From assembly GCA_017656385.1 (NCBI GenBank), contig JACDNX010000012.1:1-46123 (forward strand): a DNA stretch of 46,123 bases. Direction: 5' to 3'. The notes under the pieces were generated by a model. That model searched no databases, had not been told where the DNA came from, and saw only the letters and a list, made by a program, of their open reading frames with translations. The stretch is from Thermodesulfobacterium sp. (GTDB lineage Bacteria > Desulfobacterota > Thermodesulfobacteria > Thermodesulfobacteriales > Thermodesulfobacteriaceae). Position 1 is the stretch's first letter. Every line of letters starts with the position of its first letter. The position numbers and the translations under genes are program-made. Shown here in pieces: positions 3,541 to 9,631 of the stretch.

Positions 3541-4017
3541 TTAAAAATTTAAAGGAACATTTCCTAACATTTCACTTAAAGAATTAGTAATTTGCTGGTC
3601 AGTAATCACAGTAATGTTTATTATCAAATTATTTTCTATAATATTGTTTGAACCTGGAACCTGATTAATTTGAAAAATACCATTCGCCCCATTAAAGCCT
3701 CCTATTAAAGCCAAACTTTTTACATCTGTTCCTGATGATGAGGCTACTGGATCTACTGAAAAATCAGAATTACTATCTCCTTCTAATATACTAACACTAT
3801 GTCCCAAATTATCCCAAAAACCTGTAAAAACTACCTGAAAATAAACTCCCATATAGCCACCTCTTATTTCTTGTAAAGACTCTTCTTTTGCCAATTCTGC
3901 AGTAGTAAAAATGTTTTCTTCTTCAAATGCAAATGCTTTAGAAACTCCCATACATAAGGTAAATAATAAAACGAAACATATATATAAATTGGTTTTCAAT
4001 TTAGTCTTTTTAAACAT
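3541..4017 (-). CDS. Secreted Fap-locus protein with double-glycine motif and one amyloid-like repeat (FapE-like)
   Basis: The start was moved to the ATG at 4017 because AGGAGG lies five bases upstream; the TTG at 4032 precedes that signal. The 158-residue product has a Sec signal peptide ending near AFA, then SLQEIRGG with Gly-Gly at residues 53-54. This matches a C39-type leader pattern (Leu -7, Ile -4, Gly -2, Gly -1). The C-terminal half has one degenerate Fap-like unit, with GGFNGANGIFQINQVPGSNN as its core. It is the last gene of the minus-strand Fap run, 25 bases after the C39 peptidase, the place fapE occupies in Pseudomonas. The FapE assignment rests on position and motif, not clear homology. 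Confidence 0.6.
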   Translation of the reverse strand: MFKKTKLKTNLYICFVLLFTLCMGVSKAFAFEEENIFTTAELAKEESLQEIRGGYMGVYFQVVFTGFWDNLGHSVSILEGDSNSDFSVDPVASSSGTDVKSLALIGGFNGANGIFQINQVPGSNNIIENNLIINITVITDQQITNSLSEMLGNVPLNF

Positions 4018-4042
4018 AAAATCCTCCTGCAAGTATTTCTTT

Positions 4043-4744
4043 TTAAGGTTTTATTTCAAAAGGCTGTCTTGTAAAAATAAAATTTGTAGTAATGGCATCT
4101 CTTAAAGCCCAAATATTTTCTTTTGGAACTTCTTTATTATCAAGTTCCCACACTGTTTTAGAGGAATTTTTCCCAAAAACAGCAAGAAGAATATTATTCC
4201 AGGATTTTTTAAACTCTTCTACATTCATTACTTTATGCCCATAAGCTGGATCTGCTAAAAATACTTTATTACCTTTTATACCTTTTAAAATTACAAAATG
4301 TTGGTATCCATTTGTATTTAAAAGAATTATAGTAGGAATTTTTATCAAATGAAGCTTTTCAACAGGAACTTTATAACCTTCTGCTTTAAGACCAAATCTT
4401 TCAGCACTTTTTTTAAGGTCTAACATTGAAAAACCACGAGCTTTTATCTTTCTAATATCACTATGTTTTAATATGTCTTTTATTATAGTTTCTTCGTCTA
4501 TATTAAAGTCATAATAATATTTAAGTAAAGAAGCAAGAGCAGCGCTACCACAACTAAGGTCATATTTTTGTTTAATAAGATTTTTAAAACGGAGCTCTTT
4601 TACACTCAGAATACGCTTCTGAATATACACTCCACTAAACCCTGTTTTAACTTCTACCTCTCCTGAATAAGCACTTTGATATAGAAAAAAATATACAAAA
4701 AGAAAAAAACTCAGGCTCAAAATTTTTACTATCTTAAAATTCAT
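4043..4744 (-). CDS. fapD: C39-family cysteine peptidase of the amyloid locus (FapD-like)
   Basis: A 233-residue protein with an N-terminal hydrophobic signal/anchor (residues about 5-25) and a single C39 peptidase domain. Catalytic elements are visible: Gln59 and Cys65 in KQKYDLSCGSAAL, His149 in NGYQHFVILKG and Asp165 in FLADPAYG. There is no ABC transporter region, so it is a stand-alone, probably periplasmic protease like Pseudomonas FapD. C39 peptidases cut after Gly-Gly leaders, and two neighbours (3541-4017 and 6573-6881) carry such motifs. Lower expression than the amyloid subunit is likely because a strong hairpin separates the two genes. Confidence 0.85.
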   Translation of the reverse strand: MNFKIVKILSLSFFLFVYFFLYQSAYSGEVEVKTGFSGVYIQKRILSVKELRFKNLIKQKYDLSCGSAALASLLKYYYDFNIDEETIIKDILKHSDIRKIKARGFSMLDLKKSAERFGLKAEGYKVPVEKLHLIKIPTIILLNTNGYQHFVILKGIKGNKVFLADPAYGHKVMNVEEFKKSWNNILLAVFGKNSSKTVWELDNKEVPKENIWALRDAITTNFIFTRQPFEIKP

Positions 4745-4767
4745 TTCCTAAAACTCCTAAACAAAAT

Positions 4768-4787
4768 AAGGGGGCAAAAGCCCCCTT
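4768..4787 (-). terminator. GC-rich hairpin between amyloid subunit and peptidase genes
   Basis: AAGGGGGC and GCCCCCTT form a perfect 8-bp stem around a four-base loop. On the minus strand this is followed by a T-rich run (ATTTTGTTT). It starts 18 bases after the stop of the amyloid gene and ends 23 bases before the peptidase start. In such AT-rich DNA a six-G/C stem is conspicuous. It is either an intrinsic (partial) terminator or an mRNA-stabilising element that would favour subunit over protease. Confidence 0.75.
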
Positions 4788-4805
4788 GATACTATTTGAT
4801 ACTAC

Positions 4806-5972
4806 TTAGAATCCAGGGGTAATAAGAGGAGTTACATTTCCAGCTGCAGGTGTATAACTAACAGAAAGAGTATTTGCCTGAAGGTTATTAGTGCCTGCTG
4901 CCACATTAACACCTATATTTCCTACTGCACCTGAAAGCGCGCTACCACTTAAAGATGCTGTATTTGTGGTGTTAATGTTGGCTATGCCTATAGGTATAGA
5001 ACCTGTAATAGTGCCAGTAAGATCAATATTTTCTATACCTATATCTCCACTAACCGTCCCTTCTGCAGTTCCCTCATATGTATTTTCTTCATAAGTAGTA
5101 CCACCCGGATCCTGCGTATATATCGTTCCTTCTTCTGTTCCCTCATAAGTACCATCCAAATTACCAGTAATATCCTCACTCATCTGAACTGTTAATTCAA
5201 TAGGAATTCCATCACCATTTGTTTCTTCTACGATAGGTTGATTGTTTACCGTGTTATATTTAGATTTCTGCTGAACATAGGCTACACCCATTCCAACCTT
5301 AGCTGGCCCAACAGCTATGCCCAGTTGATTTGTCTGAGCATTATCAACTCCAGCAACAATATTAAGTCCGATATTTCCCTGTGCATTTGACAATGCATTG
5401 TCACTTGCGGAAGCAGTATTTGTTACTCCTTCATTTTTTACATTGTTAAACATAGCTTTTTGAACACTAAAAGTTTTAGATTCAACTAAGGAAGACTTTT
5501 GTTCACCAGCAGCTATTGCAACTACATTACTCTGTGCATTGTAATCTCCTGCTGCTACATTAGCACCTATGTTACCTTGTGCTCCACTAAGAACATCACC
5601 GCTAACTGATGCCTCATTTTCAGTTCCATAATTTTTTACTTCGTTAAACATTAGAAACTGATCATTTTTGCTAAGGGCTCTTACCAATCCACTTACTTCC
5701 ATCTCATCATTTTTAATGTGGATTTCAGAAGTAGCAAGAGATAAGTAGGCTTCCAAATCAGCTACCCCCATTACTTGAAGTGTAACATCTAAATTACCAC
5801 TCAATTCTCCCTCAAAATCAAAATACCCTGTGCACTCCATACCACATAATTGAGATAAATCTGGTAATTCTGGCAATTCTTGAGCCTTGGCTCCTACAGG
5901 AGCTAAAAAAGATACAGAAATTGCTAATGCTCCTGCTAACATCAATTTCTTTCTGAGCACTCTTTTTAACAT
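4806..5972 (-). CDS. fapC: Functional amyloid subunit with three Fap-type repeats (FapB/FapC-like)
   Basis: A 388-residue secreted protein with a signal peptide ending about AKA (residue 30). Three imperfect repeats are visible at about residues 109-155, 175-222 and 330-372. They share a core like GNIGxNVAAGxxNxQxN flanked by Asn/Thr/Ala/Ser-rich strands. The second linker (about 223-329) holds related GTYEGTEEGT and EGTAEGTVSGD stretches. A CGMEC pair sits near residues 43-47. The R1-L1-R2-L2-R3 layout with Asn/Gln-rich cores is that of Pseudomonas FapB/FapC, which form extracellular fibres in biofilms. A strong AGGAGG precedes the ATG. Whether it is the major fibre protein or a nucleator cannot be told from sequence; size and strong translation signals favour major. 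Confidence 0.82.
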   Translation of the reverse strand: MLKRVLRKKLMLAGALAISVSFLAPVGAKAQELPELPDLSQLCGMECTGYFDFEGELSGNLDVTLQVMGVADLEAYLSLATSEIHIKNDEMEVSGLVRALSKNDQFLMFNEVKNYGTENEASVSGDVLSGAQGNIGANVAAGDYNAQSNVVAIAAGEQKSSLVESKTFSVQKAMFNNVKNEGVTNTASASDNALSNAQGNIGLNIVAGVDNAQTNQLGIAVGPAKVGMGVAYVQQKSKYNTVNNQPIVEETNGDGIPIELTVQMSEDITGNLDGTYEGTEEGTIYTQDPGGTTYEENTYEGTAEGTVSGDIGIENIDLTGTITGSIPIGIANINTTNTASLSGSALSGAVGNIGVNVAAGTNNLQANTLSVSYTPAAGNVTPLITPGF

Positions 5973-5999
5973 GATACACCTCCTTTTTGGTTTTTTATG

Positions 6000-6563
6000 T
6001 TATTTAAGAGTTGCCCTGTTAAAATTTAAATGGAAATTATTGGCAATACCATTTCCTATCCCAGCTGATTGATTCACCTGAACTAATCCTCTTGCTCCTG
6101 AAAAAGCTGAATCAGAAATAATATCTGAAAATTCCCCTGAATATAAAGACTTGTTTTTTATTTTAGCTACATTTTGACCAAGATCTGAAGTATTAATCTT
6201 TTTTCCTACAGAAATAGATACTAAATTAGCCTCAGCATTTCCAGAACCTGAAGCTTGATTTATAGAAAAAATACCTTTTATGTCAGAAAATGCATTATCT
6301 CCAATTTTGTCCATAGCTTTGTCAGGCACTTCACTTTTACATACCGTCTCCTGATTTATAAATCCTCGGTTTAAACTCTCTATTCCTATTATCCACATGT
6401 TTGATTGAACATGATCGTCTCCTGAAGCCATGTTTATTCCTGTTATTCCAGAAGCTCCTTTTAATACATAATCTGTAATTAAACTCTGATTTATTTCTTC
6501 ACCAAAAACTTTGTGGTCAATTGAAAAAATTAGAAGAACTGCTATTAGTGCTAACCTTTTCAA
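6000..6563 (-). CDS. Short secreted Fap-repeat protein (FapB-like)
   Basis: A 187-residue protein beginning at TTG 6563, chosen because AGGAGG lies six bases upstream. It has a short signal peptide and three degenerate copies of the amyloid repeat, with cores GITGINMASGDDHVQSN, GIFSINQASGSGNAEAN and GLVQVNQSAGIGNGIAN. It ends 27 bases before the main subunit gene. Position and repeats fit FapB, the proposed nucleator of the fibre. Its repeats diverge more from the consensus than those of the 388-residue subunit. Confidence 0.68.
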   Translation of the reverse strand: MKRLALIAVLLIFSIDHKVFGEEINQSLITDYVLKGASGITGINMASGDDHVQSNMWIIGIESLNRGFINQETVCKSEVPDKAMDKIGDNAFSDIKGIFSINQASGSGNAEANLVSISVGKKINTSDLGQNVAKIKNKSLYSGEFSDIISDSAFSGARGLVQVNQSAGIGNGIANNFHLNFNRATLK

Positions 6564-6572
6564 AGTATCCTC

Positions 6573-6881
6573 CTATTTACCAAATATCACAATTTTAAAG
6601 ATACCTACATTATTACCAGTCGAAATCTCTAATTGATTAGAAGCAACCTTCGAATTTTCATCCCATAAAATGATCTTGTCAGAGTTTACAAATTGTAAAA
6701 CGGATCTCGTTGCTCCTCCACGAATATTATCAAGAACATTTTTATCTAAAACCTGCATACCCAAAATATTCAGGTTGTTAACTAAGTTCTTTTCAGCCTT
6801 CCCAACAACAGGAAAAATAAAAAAGAAAATAATAAACAGGTTAAAAATAATCAGTCTTTTTATTTTGCTTTTTGTTTTCAT
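6573..6881 (-). CDS. Small secreted protein with double-glycine leader motif (first gene of Fap run)
   Basis: A 102-residue protein with a Sec-type signal (about residues 8-29). It is followed by VLDKNVLDNIRGG, which matches the double-glycine leader consensus closely: Leu -12, Leu -7, Ile -4, Gly -2, Gly -1, with Gly-Gly at 55-56. The remaining 46 residues contain SNQLEISTGNNVGIF, faintly like one Fap repeat end. It is the promoter-proximal gene, nine bases ahead of the FapB-like gene, where fapA lies in Pseudomonas. Function is unassigned. The motif makes it a candidate substrate of the locus C39 peptidase. Confidence 0.6.
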   Translation of the reverse strand: MKTKSKIKRLIIFNLFIIFFFIFPVVGKAEKNLVNNLNILGMQVLDKNVLDNIRGGATRSVLQFVNSDKIILWDENSKVASNQLEISTGNNVGIFKIVIFGK

Positions 6882-6894
6882 AACATCTCTTTAT

Positions 6895-6912
6895 CAATCA
6901 ATAAATGTGCCT
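6895..6912 (-). promoter_or_regulatory. Weak sigma-54-like promoter ahead of the Fap run
   Basis: On the minus strand AGGCACATTTATTGATTG gives GG-N10-GA against the sigma-54 pattern GG-N10-GC (consensus TGGCAC-N5-TTGC). The match is imperfect at -12. It would put the transcript start only about five bases before the ATG at 6881. It is listed because the divergent neighbour is a sigma-54 activator. Confidence 0.25.
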
Positions 6913-7123: not shown

Positions 7124-8593
7124 ATGCGTTTAGATATCCGTCTAAAAAATCCTATAAAAGCTTTCATACCTTTAAAAGAGTCTGGAAAAAAGAAAAAAAT
7201 AATATTAGAAGGATTGAGCTTAAGAGGAGCGCTTTTAAAACTTCCAAAAGATGAAAATTTCTCTAAAAAAGATATTGTAGAAATTTTAATTCCCTATCAA
7301 GGTATAGAATTAAAAATACTTGCTAAAAAAATAAGAAAAAGCAAAGATGGTATAGCTTTAGAATTTTTAATTATAGAAAGAGAGACTCTTTTAAAACTAT
7401 GGAAATTCATTTGTAATAATTTGTATCCTGTTTCTTGGGAAGTGTGTCCCTATTGCAATTCTCCTATTAATCACAACAAAATTTGTCCAAATTGTAAATT
7501 TTCCTTAGAAATATTTAATCCTGAGTATGTGTTTAATCATTTTAAACGAACCTTTTTATACCGAGTTAAATATTTAATAAACCAAGTAAAAATTGATGAC
7601 TTAATTAATTTATATTTAAATTTAAACAAACTTCTTTTACCTAAAAAATACTACAATGAAAACATAGAATTTGTAGGGACCTGCAAAGAGATGTTAAAAG
7701 TCTTCTCTTTAATCCGAAAAGTTGCGCCTTTAAATATACCTGTTTTAATTTTGGGAAAAAGTGGGACAGGAAAAGAATTAGTAGCCCAAGCTATTTATGA
7801 AAAAAGCTTAAGAAAAGATAAACCTTTTATTGTAATAAATTGTGCAGCAATTCCAGAAACTTTACTGGAAGCAGAACTTTTTGGATACGAAAAAGGAGCT
7901 TTCACAGGAGCACATACTTCTAAAAAAGGAAAAGTAGAATTAGCAAACGGAGGGGTACTTTTTCTTGACGAAATAGGGGAGCTACCTTTATCTTTACAAG
8001 CAAAAATTTTAAGATTTTTAGAAGATGGGACAGTAGAAAGAATAGGAAGTGAAAAGTCTAAAAAAGTTGATGTAAGAGTTATAGCTGCAACTAATCGCGA
8101 TCTTGAGGAAGAAGTAAAAAACGGAAACTTTAGAGCAGATCTGTATTATCGTTTAAGTGTTTTTACTATAAAACTTCCACCCTTAAAAGAAAGGGGAAAC
8201 GATAAAATTATTTTAGCTAATTATTTTTTAAAAAAGTTTGGTAAAGAATATGGTATAACTTCTAAACAGTTTTCTGAAGATGCAAAAAAAGCTATTATGG
8301 AATATCACTGGCCCGGAAATGTAAGGGAATTGATTAACAAAATTAGAAGGGCTCTCGTATTATCTGAAAATGAAAAAATTTCTCCAAAAGATTTAGGACT
8401 TGATATTACATTAAATCCAGAATTTATGGAAACAAATACCAAAAAGTATAAAAAAATTTTTATAGACCGATCTAAACTATTAGAAACTCTTGAAAGATGT
8501 AGTTTTAATATAAGTAAAACAGCAAAAATATTAAATATAAGCAGACCAACAGTTTACAATCTTATCAAAAAATACAAGATAAATCTTCACTAA
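7124..8593 (+). CDS. Sigma-54-dependent transcriptional activator with PilZ-like domain and zinc ribbon
   Basis: A 489-residue enhancer-binding protein. Residues 1 to about 100 look like a small beta-rich PilZ-type domain. Residues 108-124 hold a CxxC...CxxC zinc ribbon. The AAA+ domain covers about 180-415 with Walker A GKSGTGKE (211-218), the sigma-54 contact loop GAFTGA (258-263) and Walker B LFLDEIGE (279-286). A Fis-type helix-turn-helix (NISKTAKILNISRPTVYNLI) closes the protein. There is no response-regulator receiver domain, so the signal must act through the N-terminus, possibly cyclic di-GMP if the PilZ reading is right. It lies divergent to the Fap genes and convergent to the barrel gene, and is the obvious candidate regulator. 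Confidence 0.85.
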   Translation: MRLDIRLKNPIKAFIPLKESGKKKKIILEGLSLRGALLKLPKDENFSKKDIVEILIPYQGIELKILAKKIRKSKDGIALEFLIIERETLLKLWKFICNNLYPVSWEVCPYCNSPINHNKICPNCKFSLEIFNPEYVFNHFKRTFLYRVKYLINQVKIDDLINLYLNLNKLLLPKKYYNENIEFVGTCKEMLKVFSLIRKVAPLNIPVLILGKSGTGKELVAQAIYEKSLRKDKPFIVINCAAIPETLLEAELFGYEKGAFTGAHTSKKGKVELANGGVLFLDEIGELPLSLQAKILRFLEDGTVERIGSEKSKKVDVRVIAATNRDLEEEVKNGNFRADLYYRLSVFTIKLPPLKERGNDKIILANYFLKKFGKEYGITSKQFSEDAKKAIMEYHWPGNVRELINKIRRALVLSENEKISPKDLGLDITLNPEFMETNTKKYKKIFIDRSKLLETLERCSFNISKTAKILNISRPTVYNLIKKYKINLH

Positions 8594-8601
8594 CCCAAAT
8601 T

Positions 8602-9579
8602 TTAAAATCTTATAGGCAGTCTTATTTCCAAGGTAACATCCGGGGCATCGTTAGTAAGTCCTACGCCAACGGAAAAATTGAGAAAACTTTTGGGAGATGT
8701 TACATAGGAAGCTCCAAAGTAAAGCATACCCACATTAAAATCGGTTCCTGCAATATCCTCACCATTTCGTGTAGTATGAGAATATATTTTTTGGTCATAA
8801 GAAATATAAGTAGAAAGCTTTTCATTTAGAGCGTATGCCATACCTATACTAAAATCTATACTGCTACCGGGTTTCATTTCTCCATAATCTTCTACATCAC
8901 GTTCAAAATTGTAAAAATAAGCTAAACTACCAAATAAAACTGCTGGATCACTACGTTTTACTAATGTAATACCTGCAGAGACCCCCCAATGACCATTTCC
9001 TGTAGGAAGTTCCTTGGGAACTCCTGAAGCATCACTTTCTATACCGTAAGGATCTTTACCAGTATTAGTTTTTACTTTAAAATTCAACACAACATCTGGA
9101 ATGCTACCTTTTTCATATAAAAGTTGATAAGAAGCTCCAAAGGTAATATCACCAATATTTGAATCTGTAACTGTTTTTTCTGTATTAGAAGAATCTTCAG
9201 CATATCGTTCTCTACGGTAAAGATATGGAATCTGTGCTTCAAGTTGAAGATTGTCTAAAAGTCCATAACGAAAATTAAGATAACCCATAAAAACATCTTT
9301 CTTGATATCTTCTGTTTTAATCTCACCTATTACTATTGCTTCTAAAATAGTAAATCCACTTATAGCTATTCTGGTTCTTGAAGTATGTGAATATTGAAAA
9401 CCGGGTTCAATAACCAGGGTTCCCTTGGGAACTAAAACTCCACCCTTTTCTTGCAGAATTGCTTCTTCAGAAGTTGGGGGTTTTTTATTTTCTTCACATA
9501 TTCCTGAACTTAGTCCAAAAAGAGAAACTGAAATCATTAACAAAATTGTTAATAATAAAACCTTTTTAAATCTTCTCAT
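8602..9579 (-). CDS. Outer-membrane beta-barrel, FapF-like amyloid exporter candidate
   Basis: The start was set at ATG 9579, seven bases after AAGGAGG. The product is 325 residues with a signal peptide, then alternating beta-strand segments with aromatic girdles and a C-terminal RLPIRF ending typical of outer-membrane barrels. It resembles the family annotated as transporter/MetA-pathway of phenol degradation. Within a Fap locus the only barrel is expected to be FapF, the trimeric pore that exports the subunits, and it sits beside the sigma-54 activator. A short charged stretch (ENKKPPTSEEAILQEKGG) precedes the barrel; no long coiled coil is obvious, unlike Pseudomonas FapF. The functional call is by context. 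Confidence 0.62.
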   Translation of the reverse strand: MRRFKKVLLLTILLMISVSLFGLSSGICEENKKPPTSEEAILQEKGGVLVPKGTLVIEPGFQYSHTSRTRIAISGFTILEAIVIGEIKTEDIKKDVFMGYLNFRYGLLDNLQLEAQIPYLYRRERYAEDSSNTEKTVTDSNIGDITFGASYQLLYEKGSIPDVVLNFKVKTNTGKDPYGIESDASGVPKELPTGNGHWGVSAGITLVKRSDPAVLFGSLAYFYNFERDVEDYGEMKPGSSIDFSIGMAYALNEKLSTYISYDQKIYSHTTRNGEDIAGTDFNVGMLYFGASYVTSPKSFLNFSVGVGLTNDAPDVTLEIRLPIRF

Positions 9580-9631
9580 AGCAAATACCTCCTTATAATA
9601 GCTTTTTAACAATGTTTTAAATATTAAAGAT

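Follow-up and report, generated by a model that had tools for sequence, protein, structure and literature searches.

We analyzed a 46,123-nt stretch of DNA from a heat-loving bacterium, Thermodesulfobacterium sp. (contig JACDNX010000012.1; hereafter the window), for which the closest named genomes are those of Thermodesulfobacterium. Within it lies a fap operon, which encodes functional amyloid fibers for biofilms and in which two exported proteins, FapE (3541–4017, minus strand) and the product of the gene at the fapA position (6573–6881, minus strand), carry the same double-glycine site in the company of an exported C39 cysteine peptidase, FapD (4043–4744, minus strand). Our results suggest that both proteins are probably pre-pro-proteins exported by Sec, from which FapD would cut a propeptide after the Gly-Gly (GG), and that this release would permit or time the secretion of the amyloid subunits FapB and FapC. 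A preliminary description of this DNA had reported two open reading frames (ORFs) with double-glycine sites past Sec signals, which it took for two accessory proteins. Both ORFs are present on the minus strand with the residues it listed, and their products do carry the site past a predicted Sec signal; they are not anonymous, however, but correspond to FapE and the FapA-position protein, encoded by the last and first genes of the operon.

The FapA-position ORF carries VLDKNVLDNIRGG, with Leu at −12, Leu at −7, Ile at −4 and Gly at −2 and −1, and the fapE ORF carries AKEESLQEIRGG, with Leu at −7, Ile at −4 and GG. The two proteins thus share the pattern L(−7)xxI(−4)RG(−2)G(−1), located some 25 residues past a signal peptide; Sec signals were judged by eye (n-region and hydrophobic core) and with a simple hydropathy rule. 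Against the description of a double-glycine leader (hydrophobic −12, Leu −7, hydrophobic −4, Gly −2 and Gly, Ala or Ser at −1), the FapA-position protein agrees at every position, and FapE at all of them except the large hydrophobic residue at −12, where it has Ala, in line with the earlier remark that only the first protein has Leu there. The predicted FapD recognition helix and site (−12 to −1) span positions 6714–6749 in the FapA-position gene (LDKNVLDNIRGG, predicted cut after residue 56) and 3856–3891 in fapE (predicted cut after residue 54), both on the minus strand. The site pattern of FapE and FapA is that of the PCAT/LahT substrate consensus, L(−12)xxxE(−8)L(−7)xxxxG(−2)G(−1) (PMC6959990, PMC6363468). 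The AlphaFold2 model of FapE (predicted local distance difference test score, pLDDT, of 44) is too poor for use, and the short helix ending at the GG that it contains is not evidence.

The presence of the motif in both proteins is not due to chance. We sampled about 390 kb of the same genome (about a quarter of it) plus the window, which together comprise 435 ORFs, 86 of them with a hydrophobic N-terminus and 47 of these without a further transmembrane segment. Within this sample, [LM]xx[IVL]xGG past a hydrophobic core is found only in FapE and the FapA-position protein; four further matches fit a looser pattern only and belong to transmembrane-type or cytoplasmic-looking proteins. Shuffled versions of either mature sequence had such a site within 45 residues of the start in about 1% of cases. 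A matrix trained solely on FapE sites from other families was run over the 132,028 positions of the sample and ranked the window FapE first and the non-homologous FapA-position protein third. A pattern scan of the window proteins revealed no strict match in FapB, FapC, FapD or FapF.

An alternative is that FapF, with a GG at its linker or plug junction, is the relevant FapD substrate and the GG motifs of FapE and FapA are incidental, which we consider very unlikely. Rouse et al. raised the cleavage of FapF on the basis of GG/GA near the plug and of missing linker peptides (PMC5557850), and a GG is present in the window FapF too (TSEEAILQEKGG). Yet this GG lacks a hydrophobic residue at −4, where Glu is found, and ranks 79 with the matrix as opposed to 1 and 3; relatives have PG or AGG in its place, whereas the FapE and FapA sites are conserved. 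FapF was rejected as a FapD substrate because of its poor site.

Conservation of IRGG among orthologues was the test that the preliminary description had set for its own idea, and the site came through it. FapE homologues were found using the window protein and operon position in place of the NCBIfam FapE model, which gave no match in 395 Desulfobacterota genomes, that of the window included, because it is too Pseudomonas-specific. In 24 homologues from Desulfobacterota and alpha-, beta-, gamma- and Acidithiobacillia-class proteobacteria, whose rows were selected by their place behind fapD and retrieved using the motif as an aid, all 24 have Gly(−2) and Leu or Met at −7, with Arg(−3) in 21 and Gly(−1) in 20, the rest having Arg or Lys; the site columns are among the best conserved of the whole FapE alignment. 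All fap-type loci whose downstream region is intact contain the motif, including L034 and L079, in which it was first overlooked owing to ORF overlap. It also recurs in the non-homologous FapA-position proteins. The family with a conserved LWDE has the site in L021, L074, L019, L020 and L022, RGQ in L076 and RGR in L075, a locus in which Arg stands at −1 in both FapA (LKEIRGR) and FapE (LEQTRGR), two unrelated proteins. Photobacterium, Cupriavidus and sphingomonads have one small motif protein upstream and FapE downstream of fapD, the upstream protein belonging to another family; in the sphingomonads the sites are looser (LGEVAGK, LQATAGR).

IRGG could also be a structural turn that serves the FapE fold or fibril packing and has nothing to do with FapD, the FapA copy being a chance occurrence, a reading that we regard as extremely unlikely. 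Glycines are often structural, and a conserved beta-like segment, YMGVYFQV, comes right after the site in FapE, but at least two families of non-homologous FapA-position proteins share the site at a similar distance past the signal peptide, and the site is enriched beside C39 genes, as detailed below.

The predicted enzyme, FapD, has 233 residues and consists of a C39 domain only (Pfam PF03412, E=1.3e-27; NF058616, E=3.2e-54). It has no ATP-binding cassette (ABC) transporter domains and is the sole C39 peptidase match in the genome, which bears out the earlier claim of a scheme not tied to an ABC exporter. Its catalytic residues Cys65, His149 and Asp165 and its oxyanion Gln59 are invariant in 21 homologues. 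The top Foldseek matches of its AlphaFold2 fold (pLDDT 71 overall, about 85–93 in the domain) are 6mpz, 7n87 and 3k8u, the peptidase domains of LahT, PCAT1 and ComA. Of 99 related genomes, 10 contain FapE, searched for with the window protein, and these 10 and no others contain a close FapD homologue.

Previous structures of LahT and PCAT1 place the −10 to −4 helix of the leader in a hydrophobic groove and the GG at the catalytic Cys (PMC6363468, PMC6959990). In the likely course of events, Sec would export FapE and the FapA-position protein, and signal peptidase would take off ~25 N-terminal residues. A propeptide of another ~25 residues would remain, closed by a C39 recognition helix (Leu −7 and Ile −4, with a hydrophobic −12 as well in FapA) and Gly-Gly. 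FapD, likewise exported by Sec, would accommodate this helix in its leader-binding groove, in the way that LahT and PCAT1 accommodate theirs in the cytosol, and cut after the GG. Release of mature FapE (and FapA) would then permit or time the secretion of FapB and FapC through FapF. Our data establish the identities of the genes, the sites with their conservation across phyla and their association with exported C39 peptidases, and the intactness of the catalytic triad; binding, cleavage, the exact scissile bond and the effect on secretion we infer.

FapD could instead bind the LxxIxG helix of FapE, FapA and related exported proteins mainly as a chaperone or docking module, with cleavage beside the purpose, as do the C39-like domains of RTX (repeats-in-toxin) exporters. 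The freely variable −1 position of the wider class (G, R, K, Q, E or A), next to nearly fixed −7 and −2 positions, is compatible with such a role, as is the related GN- or GI-ended pattern carried by the amyloid repeats. We nevertheless consider it unlikely, given that nearly all of these peptidases retain the catalytic Cys, His, Asp and Gln and that Fap secretion in Pseudomonas needs Cys38 (PMC5557850).

Cleavage of FapE by FapD is consistent with published work on Pseudomonas, in which FapD Cys38 is required for FapC secretion, its target being called unclear, and in which the mature N-terminus of FapE was never detected by mass spectrometry (Rouse et al., PMC5557850). The same study remarked that Fap proteins are without canonical C39 sites. 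We probed the Pseudomonas-type consensus by introducing single-residue changes in the Acidithiobacillus FapE and following the score in the NCBI FapE model. The score rose with Arg at −1 (+2.8 bits), Arg at −3 (+5.3), Leu at −4 (+2.1) and Tyr at +1 (+7.3), and fell with Ala at −2 (−3.9) and Asp at −7 (−5.1). From this we infer that Pseudomonas-type FapE has LxxLRGRY at the site, a statement about the NCBI model rather than a sequence read, and this would explain the published lack of canonical C39 sites.

Several observations weigh against processing of both proteins as we propose it. The hydrophobic-knot pair of PCAT1, A55 and I59, aligns with Met107 and Lys111 of FapD according to our reading of the sequence alignment, the groove being not identical. 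Hydrophobic −4 is missing in several FapE sites (Gln, Ser, Thr or Tyr), and in L023 the FapA site is both shifted and degenerate (ILGIQTGG). Residues at −1 such as Arg or Lys (some FapE) or Gln, Glu or Arg (Fil-type proteins, described below) are not known to be cut by characterized C39 enzymes, and cleavage may occur elsewhere or be absent there. Peptides of Pseudomonas FapA were seen throughout the protein, with “no processing” (Rouse et al., PMC5557850), and processing of FapA may be lineage-specific. Finally, two loci with a stand-alone C39 gene, L089 and L103, are devoid of a motif-bearing neighbor.

Beyond fap loci, nearly all stand-alone exported C39 peptidases of Desulfobacterota and of plasmid records adjoin Sec-like proteins with the motif [LIM](−12)...[DE](−8)L(−7)xx[VI](−4)x[GA](−2)[QGRE](−1); the residue counts behind this motif are approximate, a few rows having been placed in the wrong register. 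The strict motif is found in 33 of the 163 Sec-like ORFs beside C39 genes and in 1 of 122 elsewhere (p=3.5e-8, from an automatic count in which loci and operons are not phylogenetically independent), and the broad motif in 79/163 versus 10/122, the latter pattern having been defined after the data were seen and its loci likewise not being independent. Profiles of FapE and Fil-type leaders align in register (hhalign 78%, score 18.9, against a maximum of 11.2 in 150 column shuffles). In the peptidase tree, RG[GRK]-ended and [GA]Q-ended sites lie largely on different branches; four rows were trimmed at the wrong Cys-Gly, which leaves this point unaffected, and a match between branch and site type would also be expected from operons inherited as a block. 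Several of the motif-bearing neighbors are DUF6160/FilA proteins with LxxVxGQ. We propose that the scheme outlined for FapE and FapA probably serves this wider class of exported C39 peptidases, for example FilB with FilA/DUF6160, and that DUF6160 proteins may be substrates of FilB-type peptidases.

In L027–L031 and L082–L096 (Desulfobacterota) and in L039 (Acinetobacter fil), exported C39 peptidases have as neighbors DUF6160/FilA-type proteins with LxxVx[GA]Q directly past the signal peptide, and an operon often contains several of these. On Acinetobacter plasmids, small proteins with a Sec signal (L102, 404–970; L105, 2441–2767 and 5218–5631) adjoin a stand-alone C39 peptidase; their LSxQEMKDTQGA is a classical bacteriocin-type double-glycine pattern. 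The 6.5-kb Acidithiobacillus plasmid p5 (L038) contains fap genes with fapD split in two frames, apparently a decayed copy.

The preliminary description had also stated that the amyloid subunits lack the motif. This holds for the strict motif, but a degenerate relative of the C39 leader motif stands, in register, at the start of each FapB and FapC repeat. In FapC, these starts are VSGDVLSGAQGN (5571–5606), ASDNALSNAQGN (5373–5408, followed by IGLN) and LSGSALSGAVGN (4917–4952), all on the minus strand. FapC and FapB repeats rank 7, 12, 19 and 35 of 132,028 with the FapE-trained matrix, and in repeats from 25 proteins the leader score peaks at the exact register only. The comparison of repeat and leader profiles scores above all 150 column shuffles, with low probability scores (7–11%). 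The likeness counts as one event, the repeats being homologous, and could reflect chance or convergence on a turn. In addition, the C-terminal part of FapE (FNGANGIFQINQVPGSNN) is a single Fap-type amyloid repeat, and the FapE profile weakly matches the fapB repeats. A broader proposal, which we consider improbable, is that FapD reads one code in two ways, cutting the propeptides of FapE and FapA and, in the role of a periplasmic holdase, using the same groove to grip FapB and FapC repeats, since these begin with an uncuttable relative of the leader, [IL]-[ST]-D-x-A-[LF]-x-x-A-x-G-N. Repeat and C39 leader would then have a common origin or be the outcome of convergence toward one binder, and the Sec-plus-C39 class (FapD, FilB and kin) would form a general periplasmic maturation pathway.

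The operon runs on the minus strand from 6881 to 3541 in the order fapA-position gene, fapB, fapC, fapD and fapE. The first gene encodes 102 residues, with a Sec signal, a propeptide ending in LDNIRGG and a short domain with conserved [IV][IV]LWDE; LWDE and the leader are kept in relatives. This protein, which had no match in Pfam and no significant match in NCBIfam, is named after FapA, a disordered chaperone in Pseudomonas, by position alone: its gene precedes fapB as in fapABCDE. Next come fapB (6000–6563; NF058557, E=4.3e-25), coding for an amyloid nucleator-type subunit, and fapC (4806–5972; NF058558, E=7.6e-41), coding for the major amyloid subunit, each with three imperfect repeats. A terminator-like hairpin at 4768–4787 (minus strand) separates fapC from fapD; this strong hairpin, which is a pattern only and a possible attenuator, could keep the expression of fapDE below that of the subunit genes. 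The fapE gene, whose position downstream of fapD is kept in relatives, encodes 158 residues from an ATG start (an alternative TTG start is possible at 4032), with a Sec signal, a propeptide ending in LQEIRGG, a YMGVYFQVVFTGFW domain and one Fap-type repeat (FQINQVPGSNN). It weakly matches NF058559 (E=7e-4 over residues 22–144), far under the 250-bit cut-off, and all NCBIfam fap matches score below equivalog cut-offs. The gene for the outer-membrane secretion pore, fapF (8602–9612, minus strand; NF058560, E=7.9e-64), is set apart from fapABCDE, past a sigma-54 activator gene (7124–8593, plus strand; PF00158, E=1.3e-72) that is divergent from fapA and encodes a probable regulator. This activator is extended at its N-terminus and weakly matches a zinc ribbon. 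A −24/−12-like element, GGCACATTTATTGA, lies 30 nt upstream of fapA (6898–6911, minus strand), and matching elements are found in the relatives L021, L022, L074 and L020 (TTGGCACGCACCTTGC in the latter). Genes of the sigma-54 activator type adjoin fap in L018, L019 and L022. On this promoter and gene arrangement, fap expression is probably RpoN-dependent here.

The FapD substrate question has been open since 2017, though the protease activity of FapD is essential for amyloid secretion. The idea that FapE is a FapD substrate is not new, as it was already suspected (PMC5557850), and a 2025 review states that FapD is “thought to process” FapE and FapF (PMC12822426). What appear to be new are the exact site and its reach, the second candidate substrate found here and the wider class and general rule; our literature search, with most subscription papers and preprints outside its reach, turned up neither an identified FapD substrate nor a Sec-plus-C39 class. 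With a conserved site in FapE and a second one in the FapA-position protein, the substrate question can be put to a straightforward cleavage assay on defined mutants, and the predicted LxxLRGRY supplies the matching Pseudomonas residues. If the rule is general, many exported proteins of unknown function, such as DUF6160/FilA and others with an exported C39 gene as neighbor, would be given a route of maturation, and double-glycine processing would extend beyond ABC exporters.

The system described here resembles the Fap system of Pseudomonas (FapA–F) in its A-B-C-D-E gene order, the repeats of FapB and FapC, the C39 peptidase FapD, the FapF pore and a one-repeat FapE. It differs in that fapF is split off beside the sigma-54 activator gene, that FapE shows a canonical IRGG in place of the LRGR preferred by the NCBI FapE model, and that the FapA-position protein belongs to a short LWDE family with an IRGG of its own. 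FapD shares its peptidase fold and catalytic residues with the C39 ABC transporters PCAT1, LahT and ComA, and the candidate substrates share Leu −7, hydrophobic −4 and GG with theirs. Unlike these, FapD is exported, stands alone and has no ABC domain, and its substrates would arrive by Sec with a leader that follows the signal peptide. The Fil “putative pilus” system (FilA/DUF6160, FilB C39 and the FapF-like FilC) likewise combines an exported C39 peptidase, a FapF-like pore and Sec proteins with the same recognition pattern, but has Gln, Glu, Arg or His at −1 and Gly or Ala at −2, shows no Fap repeats and occupies a separate branch of the peptidase tree.

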